A stretch of 24,579 nucleotides of DNA from IMG/VR virus record IMGVR_UViG_3300046010_004078, positions 1 to 24,579 of that record. The stretch is one strand, 5' to 3'. The notes beneath the pieces are model-generated. The model did not search any database and was not told the origin of the DNA. It saw only the letters and a list, made by a program, of their open reading frames with translations. The DNA is from a virus. Below are positions 6,155 to 20,206 of this stretch, piece by piece (position 1 is the first letter of the stretch; the number at the start of each line of letters is the position of its first letter). Position numbers and translations under genes: made by a program.

Positions 6155-7846
6155 TCAGACTCCAGTCATGGCGGGACTCGGGGTCCCGTAGCCCATCAGG
6201 CCGTTCATCACGTCCTGCACGCCCTGCACGTTCACATCGCCCGCGGTCTTGGCGCTCTCCACCAGCTGCGGCATGGCGGCGGCGGTCTGCGCGGCCTGGG
6301 CCGCCTGCGCCCGCTGCGCCCTGATCTGTGCCACCACGTTGTCGGGCACCACGATCTTGGGGTTGACCCCGTACATGTCGCCGTAGTCGTCGACCACCTG
6401 GTCGAAGTCGATCTTGTCGAGCACCTCGGGCTTGAGCGCCGCCAGGTTGCCAACGGTGCCGAGCAGGCGGTCCACGCCCTGGGCGGCCACGGCACGCTGC
6501 GCCTGCGCCAGCACGCTGATGAACTCGACCTTGAGGTCAGTGCCCTCGAGCTCACGCGGCGGGGGTGGCAGGATGCCGGCCTGGTTCGCGTAGTCGAACG
6601 CGATGTCGATCATCGGGCTCAAGAGTTCGTTCTGCAGTCGCTCGAGCACGGGGCCGAGCATGAGCAGCTTCTCCTCGTGGCGCTCGGCGACCTCGGTGGC
6701 GGTGATGCCGGAGCGGGTGTCGTTCGCCAGCATCATGAACAGGTCGGCGTAGTAGCTCGAGCGGATGCGGTCGCGCACGTCCTGGATGTCGACCATCAGG
6801 TGCTGCAGGTTCAGGTTCACCTCGAACGCGCTGCGCACCACCTGGTTGCTGCCCTGGCTGTCGACGTAGAACACCCCGCCAGGCAGGCGGGCCTTGGCGG
6901 CCTCGCGGTACTTGGTGGGCACCGTGAGCGGGGGGTTGACCTGGTAGTCGATCGCCTGCCCCTTGCGCAGCTGCTGGTGCTGCAGCTGCTTGACATCCCC
7001 TAAGCACTCCATGCCGGGGCTGGTGCCGTAGATGTCGTTGCCGGTCACCACCCAGCGGGGGGTGAGTGCGGGGAACGCGTCAAAGCCTGACTCGCTCAGG
7101 AACACGTCGAAGTTCTCGCGCCCGGGCTCCATGTAGCAGGAGGCAAAGCGCTTGTTCTTGCCGTCCATCTTGGTGTAGTCGCGCTCGCGGCGGGGCTCGA
7201 TCATGTGCACCACGTCCACCCAGCCGTCGAGCTGGCGGCGGTTGTAGAGGTTCTTGACCGTGTCGCTGCAGTTCTCCAGCCCGAACTGATCGACCAGCTG
7301 GCCGACCGTCATCTGGAACTCGCGGCAGAGGGTGTCGACGATCCCCTTCTGGTTGGTGCCGAGGGCGTACTCGCCCACCGTCAGGGGGTAGTGGTGCAGC
7401 ACGCTGTCGAAGTCGGGCAGCACGATGGTGGCGGCGGTGCCGAAGAGGCCGAGCTCCTCGTAGAGCGTGTGCAGGGCGCGGTAGGTGTTGGAGCCTGCGA
7501 AGATCGCCCGCAGCAGCACGGCGGTGTCGTGCAGCCAGGACTTGACGGCGCCCGCCTCCATGAGGTCCCTGTCCTGTATCTCGAGCCGGAACCAGGGGCG
7601 AGCGGGGCTCGTCATCCCCGACATCATGCCGGCGGCCAGGGTGCGGGAGCCGAACACGGCCGCGTTGTCGAGGATGTTGTTGGCGCGCTTGTCGCCCCGG
7701 TTGCGATCCGTGACGAAGAACCGACCCGCACGCGGCTGCTGGTAGTCGCTGATGTCGCGCCAGTGGTTGACCCAGCTCGAGCGCTCGCTCCACAGCGCCG
7801 CCTTGCGGGCGAGGATGCGCTGCCGCTTGTTGATCGGTTCGTCCAT
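6155..7846 (-). CDS. Portal protein (podovirus head-to-tail connector)
   Basis: The 563-residue protein has the signature regions of the T7/P22-like podophage connector family: KAALWSERSSWVNHWRDISD near the N-terminus and a stretch with RTLAAGMMSGMTSPARPWF at about residues 70-90. It also has ELGLFGTAATIVLPD (about 130-145) and YGTSPGMECLGDVKQLQ (about 270-290). The end is Ala/Gln-rich. Portals form the dodecameric ring through which DNA is packaged and to which the tail is joined. Its place after terminase and the proline-rich mini protein is standard. The start codon overlaps the preceding stop (TAATG-type junction). Confidence 0.93.
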   Translation of the reverse strand: MDEPINKRQRILARKAALWSERSSWVNHWRDISDYQQPRAGRFFVTDRNRGDKRANNILDNAAVFGSRTLAAGMMSGMTSPARPWFRLEIQDRDLMEAGAVKSWLHDTAVLLRAIFAGSNTYRALHTLYEELGLFGTAATIVLPDFDSVLHHYPLTVGEYALGTNQKGIVDTLCREFQMTVGQLVDQFGLENCSDTVKNLYNRRQLDGWVDVVHMIEPRRERDYTKMDGKNKRFASCYMEPGRENFDVFLSESGFDAFPALTPRWVVTGNDIYGTSPGMECLGDVKQLQHQQLRKGQAIDYQVNPPLTVPTKYREAAKARLPGGVFYVDSQGSNQVVRSAFEVNLNLQHLMVDIQDVRDRIRSSYYADLFMMLANDTRSGITATEVAERHEEKLLMLGPVLERLQNELLSPMIDIAFDYANQAGILPPPPRELEGTDLKVEFISVLAQAQRAVAAQGVDRLLGTVGNLAALKPEVLDKIDFDQVVDDYGDMYGVNPKIVVPDNVVAQIRAQRAQAAQAAQTAAAMPQLVESAKTAGDVNVQGVQDVMNGLMGYGTPSPAMTGV

Positions 7847-8040
7847 TACCCGCCCAGCAGGCTGGTCTTGCCGGTCATGGCAGGCATCACCCCCATCGGG
7901 CCGGTCAGCAGCGAGCCCCCACCCATGGCGGAGGTGTTGCGGTTGCGCTTCATGCCGGCGCTGACCGCCATCGAGTCAGGCTGCTTGATGGCCTGGGGCG
8001 GTGGGGGCGGCGGTGGGATGGACGGGCTAGAGAGGCACAT
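7846..8040 (-). CDS. Proline-rich mini protein between terminase and portal, 64 aa
   Basis: The chosen ATG gives MCLSSPSIPPPPPPPQAIKQ and ends in GGSLLTGPMGV...TSLLGG. Short proteins with a 'MC..sp..P.PPPP' start and '..G.LLTg..Gv.....TLLG' end are common just upstream of podophage portal genes. A GAAGGA ribosome site lies 8 bases before this ATG. An upstream GTG at 8100 would add 20 residues of unlike composition and was not chosen. The stop overlaps the portal start. It may be a minor virion or assembly peptide; the role is unknown. Confidence 0.7.
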   Translation of the reverse strand: MCLSSPSIPPPPPPPQAIKQPDSMAVSAGMKRNRNTSAMGGGSLLTGPMGVMPAMTGKTSLLGG

Positions 8041-8100
8041 GCTGCGATCCTTCGGGGAAGTTCGCGGCATTGTGGGGTGGGGAGGCGCCCACACGGACAC

Positions 8101-9432
8101 TCAGAGGCGTTTGTAGGGGTCGTAGTCCAGGCTGTTGGCCTCCTCGATCACCGGCAGCCCCATGGCCCGGGCGCGGGCCTGGGCGCTGTGATCGACGTAG
8201 ACCGGGAAGCTGAAGGTCAGCGCCAGCGCGTCGCCCAGGTCGGGGCTCGGCAGCCCCCGCCCCTTGATGTCGTCCTTGCTCTCGAGCTGTATCTTGTCGG
8301 CCGGCGTGAACTTGTAGGTCGGTGCCGCCAGGTCCTGCTTGAGGTCGACCAGGTCCGGGATCGCACCGCCTGCGCGCAGCCAGTCGCGCAGCTCGAACCA
8401 GATTTCAGCGCGCTTGTTGAGGTAGCGGGCGTTGCTGGGGGCGCCGCTGAAGTGCACCTCGATCACCTCGTGGTGCAGCTGGCGCAGGCGGTCGATCACC
8501 CCGGAGCCGTTGCCGGCGTCGATGAACACCGCATCGGGCCGGAAGCGCTCGATCTCCTGCGCCACCTTGTCGGCCAGCGTCATGTTGTCGATGCCCCGGA
8601 ACACCTTCGGCGCCATCGCGTAGAGCCCCTGGCGCGGGAAGATCACGCTGCGGTCATCGCCGAATCGAGCCGGGTCGACCCCCAGTATCTTGCTGGCGTA
8701 GGTGTACTCGTCCTTGCGCAGGTGGCGGCGGCTCGCCTCCTGCACGTCGGTCAGGCTCATCAGCTGGTCGTCGCCCGAGGCGGCGAAGTCGCACAGCATC
8801 TCGCGCTTGAAGGTGTTCTCGTCGACCGCCTGCCGGTAGCGCTCGACCTCGGTGGCGGCCAGCGCCTCGGTGTCGTACACCGTGTAGAGGGCGCTGTGCC
8901 AGTCGGGCAGGTCGCGGCCCTTGAAGAACAGTTCGCTGAAGAGGTTGATGCCGTGCGGTGTGCCGATGAACAGCGCCCACCCCAGCCGGTCGGCGAGCGC
9001 GGGCTGCAGCACCTCGCGCCAGGTCTCGGGCTTGATGTCGGCCACCTCATCGAGCACCACCCCGTCCAGGCGCACGCCCCGCATGGCCTCCGGGTTGTCG
9101 GCGCCGTACATGCGGATGATGGCGCCGTTGCTCTTGAGGCGCACCCACAGCTCGCTCTCGTTGACCTCGGCCAGGTTGTACATCACCAGCGGTGCGACGA
9201 TCTGCTTCAGCCGGGCCCAGGCGATCGCCTTGGCCTGCTTCAGGAGTGGTGCGACGTAGAAGAACAGGCCAAGCTCGAGCGGGCAACGCAGGGCGCTGTC
9301 AAGCAACTGGCGCAGCGCGAGCTCGGTCTTGCCCGCGCGCCGGTGCAGTGCCAGCACCGTGAAGCGCTTGCGGTTCAGGTGGCACTGGCGCTGCCACTCG
9401 CGTGGGCGGTAGCCCAGATCGATCGTGGTCAT
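8101..9432 (-). CDS. terL: Terminase large subunit (ATPase-nuclease)
   Basis: This DNA-packaging motor has the ATPase Walker A RRAGKTEL at residues 31-38, Walker B VVLDEV with D128 and E129, and coupling motif FIGTPHG at 155-161. The C-terminal RNase H-like nuclease has acidic residues D253 (GVDPARFGDD), D305 (FIDAGNGSG) and D398/D401 (SPDLGDALAL). It cuts concatemeric phage DNA and pumps it through the portal. At 443 residues it is normal for the compact podophage forms. It overlaps the small subunit stop by one base (TGATG), consistent with equal coupled synthesis. Confidence 0.95.
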   Translation of the reverse strand: MTTIDLGYRPREWQRQCHLNRKRFTVLALHRRAGKTELALRQLLDSALRCPLELGLFFYVAPLLKQAKAIAWARLKQIVAPLVMYNLAEVNESELWVRLKSNGAIIRMYGADNPEAMRGVRLDGVVLDEVADIKPETWREVLQPALADRLGWALFIGTPHGINLFSELFFKGRDLPDWHSALYTVYDTEALAATEVERYRQAVDENTFKREMLCDFAASGDDQLMSLTDVQEASRRHLRKDEYTYASKILGVDPARFGDDRSVIFPRQGLYAMAPKVFRGIDNMTLADKVAQEIERFRPDAVFIDAGNGSGVIDRLRQLHHEVIEVHFSGAPSNARYLNKRAEIWFELRDWLRAGGAIPDLVDLKQDLAAPTYKFTPADKIQLESKDDIKGRGLPSPDLGDALALTFSFPVYVDHSAQARARAMGLPVIEEANSLDYDPYKRL

Positions 9433-9836
9433 CAGGCCAGGTCGGTGTGGTCGCCCACCACCGGCACCCCGGTGGCGATCACCACCTGGGTCTGCACCGG
9501 GCCACCGTTGGCGCCGGTGAGTTCAACCTTGTTGTTCTCGCGGTAGTCGTCCGGGAAGCGTGCCGCCATCGAACGCGACCACAGCTGTGGGTTGAGCTTC
9601 TCACCCTCTGGGCTCTGCCACATGCCCATCTGCCCCTGATCCTCCCACCAGGCCATCGCCAGGTCCCTTGCGCGCGCGATGGCGATGCAAAACTCTTCGT
9701 GCTCATCGCACCAGCGGTTGATGCTGGCGCGGTCACATCCCAGGGCGGCCGCCATCTGCGCTTTGCTTTTCCCAAGTGCGCCAAGCTCCACCACGGTGGT
9801 GCAGAACGCTGGGTCGTATTTTGTTGGTCGTGCCAT
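9432..9836 (-). CDS. terS: Terminase small subunit
   Basis: The 134-residue protein opens with MARPTKYDPAF, followed by an HTH: GKSKAQMAAALGCDRASINR (about residues 22-41), then helices with WWEDQGQMGMWQ. The end contains RENNKVELTGANGGPVQTQV. This layout (N-terminal HTH for pac/cos recognition, oligomerising helices, 'K.e.tG..g' tail) is typical of terminase small subunits. It directly precedes and couples to the large subunit, which supports the call. Confidence 0.88.
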   Translation of the reverse strand: MARPTKYDPAFCTTVVELGALGKSKAQMAAALGCDRASINRWCDEHEEFCIAIARARDLAMAWWEDQGQMGMWQSPEGEKLNPQLWSRSMAARFPDDYRENNKVELTGANGGPVQTQVVIATGVPVVGDHTDLA

Positions 9837-10281: not shown

Positions 10282-12249
10282 TCACAGCGCTCCCACACAC
10301 TTGGTTTCGACGTCCAGCGTGTACATCTGCTTCTCGTTTTCTTCGCACAACGAGTTCAGCGCCTTGCGCACGCTCGTTCGGCAGTTGCCCTTCGGGTCCT
10401 TCTCGATGCCGTCACGGGCCATCACGCGGCGGGTCGCCTCCTCCACCACCGCCCCGACCTCGATGCCCTCGGTCTGCACCAGCAGCATCGACTGGATCAC
10501 ATCACTCACCACCTGCTGGTTCTTGTTCAGCTTGCGATCCGAGATGCCACCGACCGGCACCGCGGCCTCGATCACCACGCAGCTCGTGATCGGGTCCAAG
10601 TCCTCATCGACGCCGATCTTCACCACCTCGAGGTCAAACCCCCACACCATGCCGTCCTCGCCGTCCTTGCTCTTGGTCAGGCGCAACGTGCGGCCGGCGG
10701 CCTCGCGTGCCACCTCGAGCTCGGCGTCCGCGGCAGCGCGCAACCCCGACCAGCCCCGGGCCCCTTTGCTGGCGTCCTTGCCCGCGTGGTGGATCAGCAC
10801 GATCATGGCGCCGGTCGACTCGTGGATGCGCTTGCAGTGGGTGAGCGCCTTACCGACGTCATCGCCGGCGTTCTCGTTGGCGCCCGGCATGACCTGGGCA
10901 AAGGTGTCGACGATGATCACGTCGGCACCGCCCCAGGCCTTCACCGCCTTGGCCACGTCGACCGCGTCCTGTATCTGCATCATGTTGGGGGCGGCGTGGA
11001 TCACGCCCAAATCCATGCCAGCCAGGTCGAACTGGTTGTGCTGGCCGTAGGCCGTCAGCCGCTTACGAAAGCCGCCAGCGCCCTCAGCGGCGATGTAGGC
11101 CACCCTGCCCTTGCGAACCTTCTTGCCGCGCCACGGCACCCCCCGGGCGATCGCCGCCGCCATGTCGAGCGCCAGGAAGCTCTTGCCCGATCCGCTGGCG
11201 CCGTAGAGCACCACCAGCTCGGCCTGGGGCAGCACGTCCTTGATCACCCAGGTCGGTGCAGCGCCCTGCGAAAACTCGCTCGCGTGCATGACCTGAAACC
11301 GGTGGCCTGCTTCCGCCACTGTTGGCGCGTCCATCAGCACCTCGAACTCATCCGCGCTTGCAGGGCCGTTGACTGCCATGCCCGCCAACTTCATCGCCGT
11401 GCGGATCGTGACGGTGCGGTCGTGGCTCTTGCCAAACGACGACCACCGCTGCAGCAGCACCTCGCGCCCGGGGAACTTCGAGCCAAGCTCTGACCAGTCG
11501 CACCAGTAGTCAAAGCCCTCGCCCTGGGTCTCGTGGTGCAGGCCCATGCCGACACTGAGCCAGGGGTCGTGCGCCATGTCGGGGTCCAGCGCCAGCATCA
11601 GGGCCTCGATCTGCTGGGGCGTGAGCCCGACCGGCTCGCCGCCACTGACGTGCACCTCGGCGGCCGGCCGGGCGAAGCGCCTGGCGCAGAGCTCACGCAC
11701 CGGACCATCGAGGGTGGCGACGGTGTTCTCGTTGCCCAGGATGTCGACGATGTCGAGCCGGTTGCCGGTGACAGTGACGAACCCCTTGGATGAGAACACC
11801 TCGAACCCGTAGGGCTCGCCGCGGGCCTTGCTGTTGCCGTACTGGCCCTTGACGAAAGCGCGCACGCCGGTGCCGCTGGGGCTGTACTCGGCATACGTCC
11901 CGGTAACGATCGACTCGAGGTCAGGGTGCACCTGGCCGTTGGTGACGCAGTGGTCGAAGTCGAGCGCGCAGATGTTGAACTCAGGCATCGGCACGAAGCC
12001 GACACCGTCGAACCCACGGCGCGCGGCTGCGGTGCGGGCGGCGTCGAAGGTGGTCAGCTGTTGCAGGTCCTGGGGTGAGCCCTGCTTGCCGTGGCGCTTG
12101 CTGCCGGTGGTGTAGTAGGGAACCTTGCGGGGCTTGTCCTCGCCCTCGTGGTACTCGAAGCGCCACACCAGCCAGGCTGGCAGGTTGCGCATCTCGTCAG
12201 GGGCGACGATCGAGGAGATGTGGGGCTTGATGGTGGTGACCGCGTTCAT
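10282..12249 (-). CDS. Primase-helicase (AEP/PrimPol-like N-terminus, PriCT-2-like region, RecA-type helicase)
   Basis: The 655-residue protein joins three parts. Residues about 20-180 form a primase/polymerase-like domain with CALDFDHC (D97, D99) and YSPSGTGVRAFVKG (122-135), resembling archaeo-eukaryotic primases of the NrS-1/PrimPol type. Residues about 208-290 look like a PriCT-2 domain (TPQQIEALMLALDPDMAHDP, W..VGMGLHHET). Residues 340-520 are a RepA/AAA_25-type helicase with Walker A GASGSGKS (350-357), Walker B VIIVDT (444-449) and LIHHAGKD (485-492). It probably primes and unwinds the phage origin. It lies in the leftward arm, apart from the polymerase and SSB genes, and its start overlaps the upstream gene by four bases. 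Confidence 0.92.
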   Translation of the reverse strand: MNAVTTIKPHISSIVAPDEMRNLPAWLVWRFEYHEGEDKPRKVPYYTTGSKRHGKQGSPQDLQQLTTFDAARTAAARRGFDGVGFVPMPEFNICALDFDHCVTNGQVHPDLESIVTGTYAEYSPSGTGVRAFVKGQYGNSKARGEPYGFEVFSSKGFVTVTGNRLDIVDILGNENTVATLDGPVRELCARRFARPAAEVHVSGGEPVGLTPQQIEALMLALDPDMAHDPWLSVGMGLHHETQGEGFDYWCDWSELGSKFPGREVLLQRWSSFGKSHDRTVTIRTAMKLAGMAVNGPASADEFEVLMDAPTVAEAGHRFQVMHASEFSQGAAPTWVIKDVLPQAELVVLYGASGSGKSFLALDMAAAIARGVPWRGKKVRKGRVAYIAAEGAGGFRKRLTAYGQHNQFDLAGMDLGVIHAAPNMMQIQDAVDVAKAVKAWGGADVIIVDTFAQVMPGANENAGDDVGKALTHCKRIHESTGAMIVLIHHAGKDASKGARGWSGLRAAADAELEVAREAAGRTLRLTKSKDGEDGMVWGFDLEVVKIGVDEDLDPITSCVVIEAAVPVGGISDRKLNKNQQVVSDVIQSMLLVQTEGIEVGAVVEEATRRVMARDGIEKDPKGNCRTSVRKALNSLCEENEKQMYTLDVETKCVGAL

Positions 12250-12479
12250 GGCGCAATCCTTTGAACCACGGTGATATTGACCTCGAGCAGCTCAACCACT
12301 TCAAGCATCGGCCGATGCTGAAGGCACCGCTGGTGTTGAATGTTGCTGAGATATTTTTTGGCCTGGTTCCTGCTGGTGCCAAATGACGCGGAGAGAAGAA
12401 ACTCCTTGTCGTGGGCGTTCCTTACGAGGTACGCGAAACCGGTGTAATCGGCGTGAGTCATGTGGCGCTGAACTTTCAT
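12246..12479 (-). CDS. Small unknown protein upstream of primase-helicase, 77 aa
   Basis: The stop overlaps the primase-helicase ATG (ATGA), so the two are probably translated together. The sequence contains YTGFAYLVRNAHDKEFLLSA and SRNQAKKYLSNIQHQR, mixed charged and hydrophobic, without a recognised domain. It is less GC-rich than its neighbours. The ATG at 12479 has no clear ribosome site. The next in-frame ATG at 12461 is preceded by GAAAG at an 11-base spacing and could be the true start. Both lie inside the interlocked inverted-repeat structure at 12463-12560, so its expression may be controlled at translation. Confidence 0.62.
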   Translation of the reverse strand: MKVQRHMTHADYTGFAYLVRNAHDKEFLLSASFGTSRNQAKKYLSNIQHQRCLQHRPMLEVVELLEVNITVVQRIAP

Positions 12480-12560
12480 TAAACGAAAGCCAGGTGAGGG
12501 TCCGCATTCAGCGCCAACCGACCCGAACCTAAATACGGGAGCGGACCCTCACCTGGCTTT
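12463..12560 (-). promoter_or_regulatory. Interlocked inverted repeats (possible pseudoknot or switch leader) at the start of the gene before primase-helicase
   Basis: A perfect 20-bp inverted repeat pairs 12486-12505 with 12541-12560 around a 35-base loop. A perfect 10-bp inverted repeat pairs 12463-12472 with 12507-12516. Order on the leftward RNA is B', A', B, start codon, A, so the two helices are interlocked: they can form an H-type pseudoknot or replace one another. Helix A lies between the GAAAG motif and the ATG at 12461. The 20-bp stem could alternatively be a terminator, since T-rich tracts follow on both strands (GGCTTTT and GGCTTTCGTTT). Confidence 0.45.
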
Positions 12561-12572
12561 TCTAGGTTTTAA

Positions 12573-12608
12573 CTTACGGTTGGCCCGCAGACTGTAGCAG
12601 ACCGTAAG
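12573..12608. promoter_or_regulatory. 8-bp hairpin containing a CTGCTACA motif; possible leftward promoter
   Basis: CTTACGGT at 12573-12580 and ACCGTAAG at 12601-12608 are perfect inverted repeats around 20 bases. On the minus strand the loop reads TCTGCTACAGT, sharing CTGCTACA with the rightward promoter motif at 13907, 14954 and 24240. TACAGT (12596-12591) could serve as a -10 box for the leftward operon, starting RNA near 12585. A convincing -35 box is absent. Confidence 0.3.
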
Positions 12609-12782: not shown

Positions 12783-12868
12783 TCGCGGGCGGCTGCCATC
12801 AAGGCAGCGGTGAAGAACCCTGCGAAGTAGCAGAGCCAGCAGAGCACGAGCACCTGCCACCAGGTCAT
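12779..12868 (-). CDS. 29-residue single-span membrane peptide
   Basis: This tiny frame reads MTWWQVLVLCWLCYFAGFFT and then a short Ala-rich end with RE. The whole body is one hydrophobic helix with Trp at its start, as in small inner-membrane peptides. Its ATG overlaps the stop of the HTH gene upstream and its stop overlaps the ATG of the 56-residue gene downstream. This double four-base overlap is strong context evidence that it is translated. Function is unknown. Confidence 0.58.
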   Translation of the reverse strand: MTWWQVLVLCWLCYFAGFFTAALMAAARE

Positions 12869-13194
12869 AGGGCAAGCTCCAGTTGGCGGGTGTCGACGAT
12901 GGGAAAATCACTGACCACGGCGCGGGAGCCCAGGCACTTGGCAGCGTACTGGCACGACCGGCAGGCCTCGCACAGGTCGGTGCGGTAGACCTTCGGCAGC
13001 CGGCCCTTGCTGAGGCGGTGCATCTCGGCGGTGGCGACCTCGATCGCTCCAGCGCGGGCGGCACTAGCATCGCGGTGGCCGCCGGCGTACTGGTACAAGT
13101 TGCCACGGGTGGTGCCCACGCGCTTTGCGAGGGCCTCCTGCTCTTCGGCCGTGGCCGCAGCCATCCAGGCCTTCATCGGGGTGATTGTTTTCAT
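12865..13194 (-). CDS. YdaS/Cro-like HTH regulator with C-terminal Cys cluster
   Basis: Residues about 17-55 (EEQEALAKRVGTTRGNLYQY, then GGHRDASAARAGAIEVATAEM) match Cro/YdaS-like helix-turn-helix proteins that end an operator-binding fold with an 'A..iE.At..m' helix. The second half has a Cys-rich stretch LCEACRSCQYAAKC (residues about 75-88) that may bind metal; such tails occur in HTH proteins of Burkholderiales phages. It is the first gene of the leftward control operon and faces the repressor-like gene at 13259. It probably acts as the Cro-type partner in a genetic switch; this is inferred from arrangement. Confidence 0.8.
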   Translation of the reverse strand: MKTITPMKAWMAAATAEEQEALAKRVGTTRGNLYQYAGGHRDASAARAGAIEVATAEMHRLSKGRLPKVYRTDLCEACRSCQYAAKCLGSRAVVSDFPIVDTRQLELAL

Positions 13195-13258
13195 GGCCGG
13201 ATTTTAGCAGGCTGTACAGCCCTTGCAGCAAGGTGCTACGTGCTGATACCCTGCCCTC
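13195..13258. promoter_or_regulatory. Divergent promoter/operator region of the regulatory switch
   Basis: Only 64 bases separate two divergent HTH genes. A perfect 12-bp palindrome GGCTGTACAGCC lies at 13210-13221. A second dyad AGCAAGGTGCT lies at 13227-13237 and is followed by TACGTGCTGATA. Rightward, TTGCAG (13223-13228) and TACCCT (13247-13252) are spaced 18 bases and could be the promoter of the 137-residue gene. Leftward, TAAAAT (13206-13201) could be a -10 box with a poor -35. The AGCA/TGCT half-sites recall the TAGCAnnTGCTA operators downstream. Confidence 0.5.
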
Positions 13259-13672
13259 ATGAAGTCCGTGTACGCCCTGCGACGTGAGAACCTGCGCGCC
13301 CTGATGCGCGAGTGGGGCGGCCCCACCTCGCTGGCGAAGAAGCTCGGCCACACGAACGGCAGCTACCTGGCCCAGCTGGTAGGTCCCCACCCCTCCCGTG
13401 AGGTGAGCGAGAAGGTCGCCCGCGAGATCGAGGGCAAGCTGGCGCTGCCGCTCGGGTGGCTCGACCAGGAGCACGACGGCCAGGGGCGCCAGATCGACGA
13501 CCAGGCCCTGGGCGAGTGCGTGAGGGCGGTCGCTGCTGCGATCCGTGACGCAGGTCTCAGACCCGACCCCGACACCTATGCGAACCTGGTCAGCCTTGCC
13601 TACGAGCACACGAAGCTCACCGGCCGTGTCGACGAACCCTACATCAACAGACTTGTGAGGCTCATACGATGA
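13259..13672 (+). CDS. HTH transcriptional repressor (CI-like, no peptidase domain), 137 aa
   Basis: Residues about 8-65 contain NLRALMREWGGPTSLAKKLG, then TNGSYLAQLVGP and SREVSEKVAREIEGKLALP, a lambda-repressor-type HTH common in Burkholderiales phages. The stretch LPLGWLDQEHDG closes the domain. The C-terminal half is helical and has no S24/LexA peptidase Ser-Lys pair, so self-cleavage during SOS is unlikely. It starts near a possible TTGCAG/TACCCT promoter and is coupled to a small membrane gene. Role as lysogeny repressor or early regulator is inferred. Confidence 0.85.
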   Translation: MKSVYALRRENLRALMREWGGPTSLAKKLGHTNGSYLAQLVGPHPSREVSEKVAREIEGKLALPLGWLDQEHDGQGRQIDDQALGECVRAVAAAIRDAGLRPDPDTYANLVSLAYEHTKLTGRVDEPYINRLVRLIR

Positions 13673-13888: not shown

Positions 13889-13916
13889 TGCGGTGTGTTT
13901 TAGCATCTGCTACAAT
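13888..13916 (+). promoter_or_regulatory. Promoter with overlapping TAGCA-CT-TGCTA operator
   Basis: TTGCGG (13888-13893) and TACAAT (13911-13916) are spaced 17 bases, a good sigma-70 promoter. The near-palindrome TAGCATCTGCTA (13901-13912) overlaps the -10 box, so a bound regulator would block RNA polymerase. It drives the early operon beginning at 13970. The 54 bases between the promoter and that gene show no other feature. Confidence 0.7.
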
Positions 13917-20167: not shown

Positions 20168-20190
20168 GGTTTTCCCTAGTAGGAGAACTT

Positions 20191-20206
20191 TAGCACGTGC
20201 TACAAT
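20191..20206 (+). promoter_or_regulatory. Promoter -10 with perfect TAGCACGTGCTA operator
   Basis: The perfect 12-bp palindrome TAGCACGTGCTA (20191-20202) runs into TACAAT (20201-20206), as at 13901 and 14948. No good -35 box is found 17 bases upstream. A small dyad TAGGG-tttt-CCCTA (20165-20178) just before it may weakly terminate the HNH transcript. The site precedes the gene at 20237 and probably restarts transcription after the homing gene. Confidence 0.6.

Follow-up and report, generated by a model that had tools for sequence, protein, structure and literature searches.

A conserved pseudoknotted leader RNA upstream of phage primase-helicase genes and its candidate role in translational control

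Gene setting and architecture of the leader

The stretch of DNA analyzed here (the window) is a 24.6-kb (24,579-nt) IMG/VR fragment of a tailed phage, for which a whole-window megablast against isolate phages gave no match. Genes for head, portal/adaptor and terminase proteins are read leftward in the window, and those for an exonuclease, a Gp2.5-like ssDNA-binding protein (SSB), a DNA polymerase and a helicase are read rightward. A CI-like repressor gene (13259–13672, plus strand; phrog_12107 transcriptional repressor, E = 2.9e-13) is divergent from the gene for a Cro/YdaS-like regulator (12865–13194, minus strand), whose matches to PF15943 and phrog_35 are weak, the Pfam match being below the cut-off. 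The latter is the first gene of a leftward operon, in which it is followed by the repeat region, a 71-aa leader ORF (12246–12461, minus strand, starting at 12461) and a 655-aa primase-helicase with PriCT_2 and AAA_25 domain matches (10282–12249, minus strand), and the stop of the leader ORF overlaps the primase start at 12249. The leader ORF had no Pfam or PHROGs match and a protein search returned no relatives; a small ORF homologous to it is carried by locus L058.

The operator/promoter TTACGGTCTGCTACAGT (12591–12607, minus strand) contains the extended -10 element TGCTACAGT at 12599–12591, and a box resembling an extended -10 is found upstream of nearly all copies of the RNA described below. 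The palindrome-like motif TTACNNNNTGCTANAGT (core TAGCA..TGCTA) has five matches with at most two mismatches in the window, where 0.29 are expected by chance. They are located at 12591–12607 and 13201–13217 (minus strand), 13900–13916 (plus strand) and 20187–20206 (both strands), among them sites immediately before the Cro-like gene and before a rightward operon. These sites are probably the operator set of the repressor and, given that the motif recurs in the window, the leader promoter would be under phage-repressor control. In a comparison of 12–13 phage records of 24–46 kb, a CI-like repressor was found in 10 of 13 RNA-bearing records. Integrase (tyrosine type) and ParA had no match in the 12–13 records and ParB had one sub-threshold match only; as none of these was convincing, they were dropped as evidence of lysogeny.

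An inverted-repeat search confirmed the two perfect repeats of the original prediction, one of 20 bp (12486–12505/12541–12560) and one of 10 bp (12463–12472/12507–12516). These interlock, and no other perfect inverted repeats of 10 bp or more do so within 110 nt in the window. In 60 dinucleotide-preserving shuffles, no interlocked pair arose under these criteria and repeats reached at most 13 bp. The interlocked repeats are thus beyond chance. The order GAAAG (12477–12473), 10-bp arm (12472–12463) and ATG (12461–12459) on the leftward strand was likewise as predicted. Although correct, that description was incomplete: an arm at the 5' end (12584–12577), which competes with the 10-bp helix for a shared central strand, was not part of it, nor were the loop pseudoknot, the inner hairpin and the adjacent upstream promoter. 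The repeats are part of a larger conserved element, a predicted RNA of ~125 nt on the leftward strand (12585–12459), which starts 6–7 nt downstream of the extended -10 promoter and ends with the ATG of the short ORF.

All features of this RNA are on the minus strand. The 5' arm of helix P1, GCCAACCG (12577–12584), would be at or near the RNA +1 and pairs with CGGTTGGC (12520–12513). The 5' strand of the loop pseudoknot (PK), AACCTAGA (12561–12568), pairs with TTTAGGTT (12533–12526), which lies inside the loop of hairpin P3 (5' arm CCCG, 12536–12539; 3' arm CGGG, 12525–12522). Helix A, formed by the 20-bp repeat, has its 5' arm at 12541–12560 and its 3' arm (A') at 12486–12505. The central strand CGGTTGGCGCTGAA (12507–12520) contains the P1 3' arm (12520–12513), which overlaps strand B (12517–12507). 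B pairs with B', TTCAGCGCCA (12463–12472), an arm of the 10-bp repeat, at about -18 to -20 kcal/mol. B' is located between the putative Shine-Dalgarno (SD) sequence GAAAG (12473–12477) and the ATG, which follows B' by 0–6 nt among the copies. GAAAG is present in nearly all copies; it is missing from L062, and L134 has GAGGA instead.

Distribution of the leader and compensatory change in its helices

Searching IMG/VR with the primase yielded 25 loci, and upstream of the primases a clearly related block of ~110 nt was found directly after a TGCTA[ACT]A[AG]T box and ending with GCGCCAA-ATG. Further copies were added by pattern scans and then by the covariance models R1 and R2. R1, although the window was not in its training set, gave the window a score of 40 bits (E about 1e-7), and R2 led to divergent copies adjoining other primases. 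About 45 distinct copies were found among IMG/VR phages, with one forward copy per genome record. Many of them were retrieved with patterns in which parts of P1, of B or of GAAAG were obligatory; such patterns played no part in finding the divergent copies or the copies reached through primase genes.

No credible match to the element was found among isolate phages by blastn or among GTDB genomes by the pattern used, and blastn of the primase returned only Caulobacter phages, without the element at that locus. The single match to a bacterial-genome contig, from Cedecea, was dropped because the covariance model did not confirm it. Rfam contained no matching family, with only miRNA-type and similar chance matches, and no description of the RNA was found in openly accessible papers, subscription papers being outside the search. 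The predicted structured RNA is previously uncatalogued and absent from Rfam 15. In a sister clade (L014–L020 and L022), the primases are 55–60% identical and the RNA is missing; several of its members have a Cro-like gene directly before the primase.

In the 33 copies examined, an ATG within a few nucleotides after B' opens a short ORF that is followed by a primase-helicase, with an overlap that is usually ATGA or GTGA. In three copies (L055, L064 and L023), translation probably starts at a codon other than the first ATG. The coupling of a small gene to the primase-helicase had been predicted, and the stop of the short ORF does overlap the primase start; this ORF is not, however, a fixed partner, as it ranges from 9–10 codons up to a methyltransferase. 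DNA methyltransferase-type genes are found between the RNA and the primase, in the leader-ORF position beside B', in L055, L064, L023, L006, L007 and L008. In many copies, the primase is provided with an SD-like sequence of its own, so that its coupling to the leader ORF may be partial. The downstream primases are of non-homologous types, i.e., AAA_25 (RepA-like), VapE, D5/DUF5906 and Prim-Pol, which argues that the RNA travels with a role rather than with one gene family.

The model alignment of 38 rows, one of which is a reverse-strand match of L023, was fitted to helix A and P3, without P1, PK and B-B' as pairs. In this alignment, 97.2% of the helix A and P3 cells were paired, compared to 72.4% after shuffling and only 41–54% in slid registers, and the covariation score was 0.662 versus 0.180 for the shuffled alignments. 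Double changes were seen in 21 of the 24 pairs and in 209 cells, i.e., in 18 of 20 pairs of helix A (96.7% of cells paired over 38 rows) and 3 of 4 pairs of P3 (100% paired). The 20-bp helix of the original prediction thus covaries among related phages. Given that G-U outnumbers A-C type mismatches in helix A by 39 to 1, the function is assigned to the leftward strand.

In the first MAFFT alignments, B' and the window class were out of register. P1, PK and B-B' were accordingly assessed for covariation by partner swaps, in which the duplex energies of own and swapped partners were compared for 16 representatives over 5000 permutations, phylogeny being ignored. For P1, for PK and for the central strand with B', 0 of 5000 permutations were as good as the own partners. 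Compensatory changes in the P1 5' arm are found in L127, L150, L100 and L131. The PK strands are replaced pairwise across copies (CTGTCC/GGACAG, CGTGT/ACACG, TTTGCA/TGCAAA and CGCAAA/TTTGCG), and B and B' change together in L109 (GGTTGGCAC/GTGCCAACC). Three-way co-changes are seen in L150 (central strand GGCTGGCG, 5' arm GCCAGTC, B' CGCCAGCC) and in L127 (central strand GGTGTGAG, 5' arm CTCACACC, B' TCTTACA), in the latter of which B/B' is TGTGAGA/TCTTACA. In divergent copies, both partners, at the 5' end and at the start codon, change along with the central strand.

These comparisons show, at the level of sequence, that helix A, P3, PK, P1 and B-B' are each kept by compensatory change. One central strand staying matched to two different partners is the hallmark of alternative or cis/trans pairing. 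Relatives retain both of the helices first noticed, and not only the 20-bp hairpin, and changes in the 10-bp arms are compensated (L109, L150 and L127). B-B' is weak or broken in a few copies (-6.1 kcal/mol in L023; no clear B' in L134). In the divergent L134 copy (1024–1130), helix A is followed by a U5 tract, and this copy may represent a variant of the terminator type.

A candidate switch at the start codon and its rivals

As both P1 and B-B' need the central strand, they exclude each other within one RNA. The original prediction had helix A and the 10-bp helix interlock in an H-type pseudoknot or alternate; both are indeed kept by compensatory change, as in an H-type pseudoknot leader, but the main alternation is not between these two. 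It lies in the central strand, which takes either the 5' arm (P1) or the start-codon arm (B'). The two energies are near balance in many copies, at about -10 to -17 kcal/mol for P1 and, in most cases, -11 to -22 kcal/mol for B-B', and because these ranges overlap, neither helix wins in all of them. Of the two PK strands, the 5' one directly adjoins helix A at its outer end, and the other is only a few nucleotides away from it at the inner end. With its strands at opposite ends of helix A, PK probably cannot coexist with a complete helix A.

We consider it fairly probable that this is a conserved leader RNA with two mutually exclusive folds that gate translation of a leader ORF coupled to the primase-helicase, and the RNA would then probably set when the phage starts making its replication enzyme. 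P1, P3 and PK use only sequence that is transcribed before A'. In the early state, these three would form during transcription and leave B' open (ON); in the late state, helix A and B-B' would form and close the start site (OFF). The repressor operator at the leader promoter would set the timing of RNA synthesis. The idea of a translational switch, raised in the original prediction, fits the data. If truncated or processed downstream of helix A, the leader RNA could also supply B in trans to other mRNA copies, as the P4 CI RNA or IsrK do.

The last step could instead be the main one. A terminated or processed RNA of ~100 nt, from +1 to just past helix A, would be a trans antisense (immunity) RNA of the C4 or P4 CI kind. 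Through its exposed B, it would bind B' (and the 5' arm) of other leaders and so silence the replication genes in cells that carry the repressor; pairing in cis would be secondary. The complementarity of upstream, central and downstream strands resembles that of seqA-CI-seqC in P4 (PMC4825925), the promoter is in the operator set beside the CI-like repressor, and U-runs of at least four directly follow helix A in about half of the copies. Cis B-B' is sterically tight as well. With the full 20-bp helix A in place, it is roughly estimated to require opening of 0–5 outer pairs (0 in the window), the linkers being only 4–13 nt long, and with linkers this short B-B' may be intermolecular. However, L109 and L150 have no U tract, B is hidden by P1 within the same RNA, and the searches for integrase, ParA and ParB above gave no convincing sign of lysogeny. 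We regard this alternative as possible but clearly the less probable one.

The fold could also be an operator RNA, bound by a phage protein such as the Gp2.5-like SSB or the primase, which represses translation of the leader ORF. A conserved, tertiary-looking fold and the Gp2.5-like SSB gene in the window are consistent with such a role, but the element precedes non-homologous primases, which makes autoregulation by the primase unlikely. Overall, we think a protein-binding operator doubtful.

An intrinsic terminator or attenuator, in which helix A and a U tract end leader transcription and the 10-bp match is incidental, had been named as the main alternative. This is not borne out. The GC-rich 20-bp hairpin is conserved and followed by U-runs of 4–6 in many copies, but a U tract directly after it is not a conserved feature: a good one is lacking in the window (TTTCGTTT), in the GCCAACC class and in L109 and L150. 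Moreover, a terminator scan confined to loops of 3–8 does not report helix A, and P1, PK and B-B' covary, which a terminator would not need. A terminator is accordingly improbable. That the functional RNA is the rightward (antisense) transcript is very improbable, as the reverse-strand covariance matches of 20–35 bits come from the palindromic helix A, the rightward U tract of the window is absent from relatives, the promoter, SD and ATG are all leftward, and the 39-to-1 excess of G-U favors the leftward strand. HDV-like and other self-cleaving ribozymes were considered and dropped on topology, as the loop pseudoknot pairs to the wrong strand and Rfam gave no match.

Comparison with known regulators

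Competition at the start codon can be compared with known systems. Asano and Mizobuchi (1998; cited in PMC10724649) reportedly described that an RNA pseudoknot and leader-peptide translation gate the replication initiator gene repZ of the IncI-alpha plasmid ColIb-P9. There, the countertranscribed RNAI inhibits and the pseudoknot activates. Compared by description, the two leaders share a pseudoknot and a leader peptide gating a replication gene; they differ in that the inhibitor of ColIb-P9 is countertranscribed, whereas the antisense strand of the present RNA is in the same transcript.

The original prediction knew of no described phage leader with this plan, which is partly right, as a related plan is found in P4 CI RNA, P1 C4 and Gifsy-1 IsrK. 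The CI RNA of P4 pairs with sequences upstream and downstream of itself, silencing replication genes (PMC4825925). In both RNAs, a central strand is complementary to upstream and downstream leader sites before replication genes, which in P4 include the alpha primase-helicase (PMC4825925; alpha gene in X51522). The P1 5' arm, central strand and B' correspond to seqA, CI (seqB) and seqC, with a primase downstream. In contrast to P4, the present RNA folds into a compact pseudoknot and has its downstream site between the SD and the ATG. Premature termination of transcription is how P4 acts; a U tract is found in only about half of the present copies. R2 had no match in positions 6500–9500 of X51522 (L086).

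C4 of P1 controls icd-ant under C1 (PMC8198154). C4 of P1/P7 (RF01695; c4-a1b1, RF03163) has its own promoter, which the phage repressor represses, complementary sites upstream and downstream, and a small ORF (icd) before the controlled gene (PMC8198154), and the plan here is similar. This likeness is by analogy only: the central strand has complementary sites upstream and downstream, the downstream one lying at a short ORF's ribosome binding site. The gene controlled by C4 is an antirepressor and that of the present RNA is a primase. RF01695 had no match at the gathering score in eight loci, nor at E ≤ 5 in the window, nor at E ≤ 1 in L058 and L004, whereas P1, as a positive control, scored 68.8 bits. 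The present RNA had no match to RF03163, and R1 found nothing in P1 loci. Homology of the window leader ORF to Icd was rejected, as comparison revealed no similarity.

In IsrK-orf45-anrP of Gifsy-1, two alternative structures gate translation and an AUGA overlap leads onto the next gene (PMC4825925). The Gifsy-1 IsrK leader thus shares with the present RNA a leader, a short ORF overlapping the next gene and two alternative structures. It differs in sequence and fold, its downstream gene is an antirepressor, and IsrK activates translation in trans. By analogy, the present RNA is read as working like the C4, P4 CI and IsrK regulators, and not as a member of the C4 family of Rfam.

We give an even chance to the broader proposal that this is a new RNA family in which the 5' end and the start-codon strand compete for the central strand in a pseudoknotted fold, as a portable on/off module for replication across non-homologous primase-helicases, possibly also acting as an immunity RNA in trans. 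If so, the onset of replication in a broad group of uncultivated phages would be set by a leader RNA, beyond repressor proteins alone, and RNA logic like that of P4 and C4 would have evolved separately around primase operons. The element would also be a new structured RNA family for annotating metagenomic phages. As the RNA is ~125 nt long and self-contained and has natural compensatory variants, the mechanism is directly testable with reporters. The GCCAACC-class RNAs of L032, L008, L029 and L036 are near-identical yet precede different types of primase-helicase, a pattern that suggests exchange of the RNA as a module.
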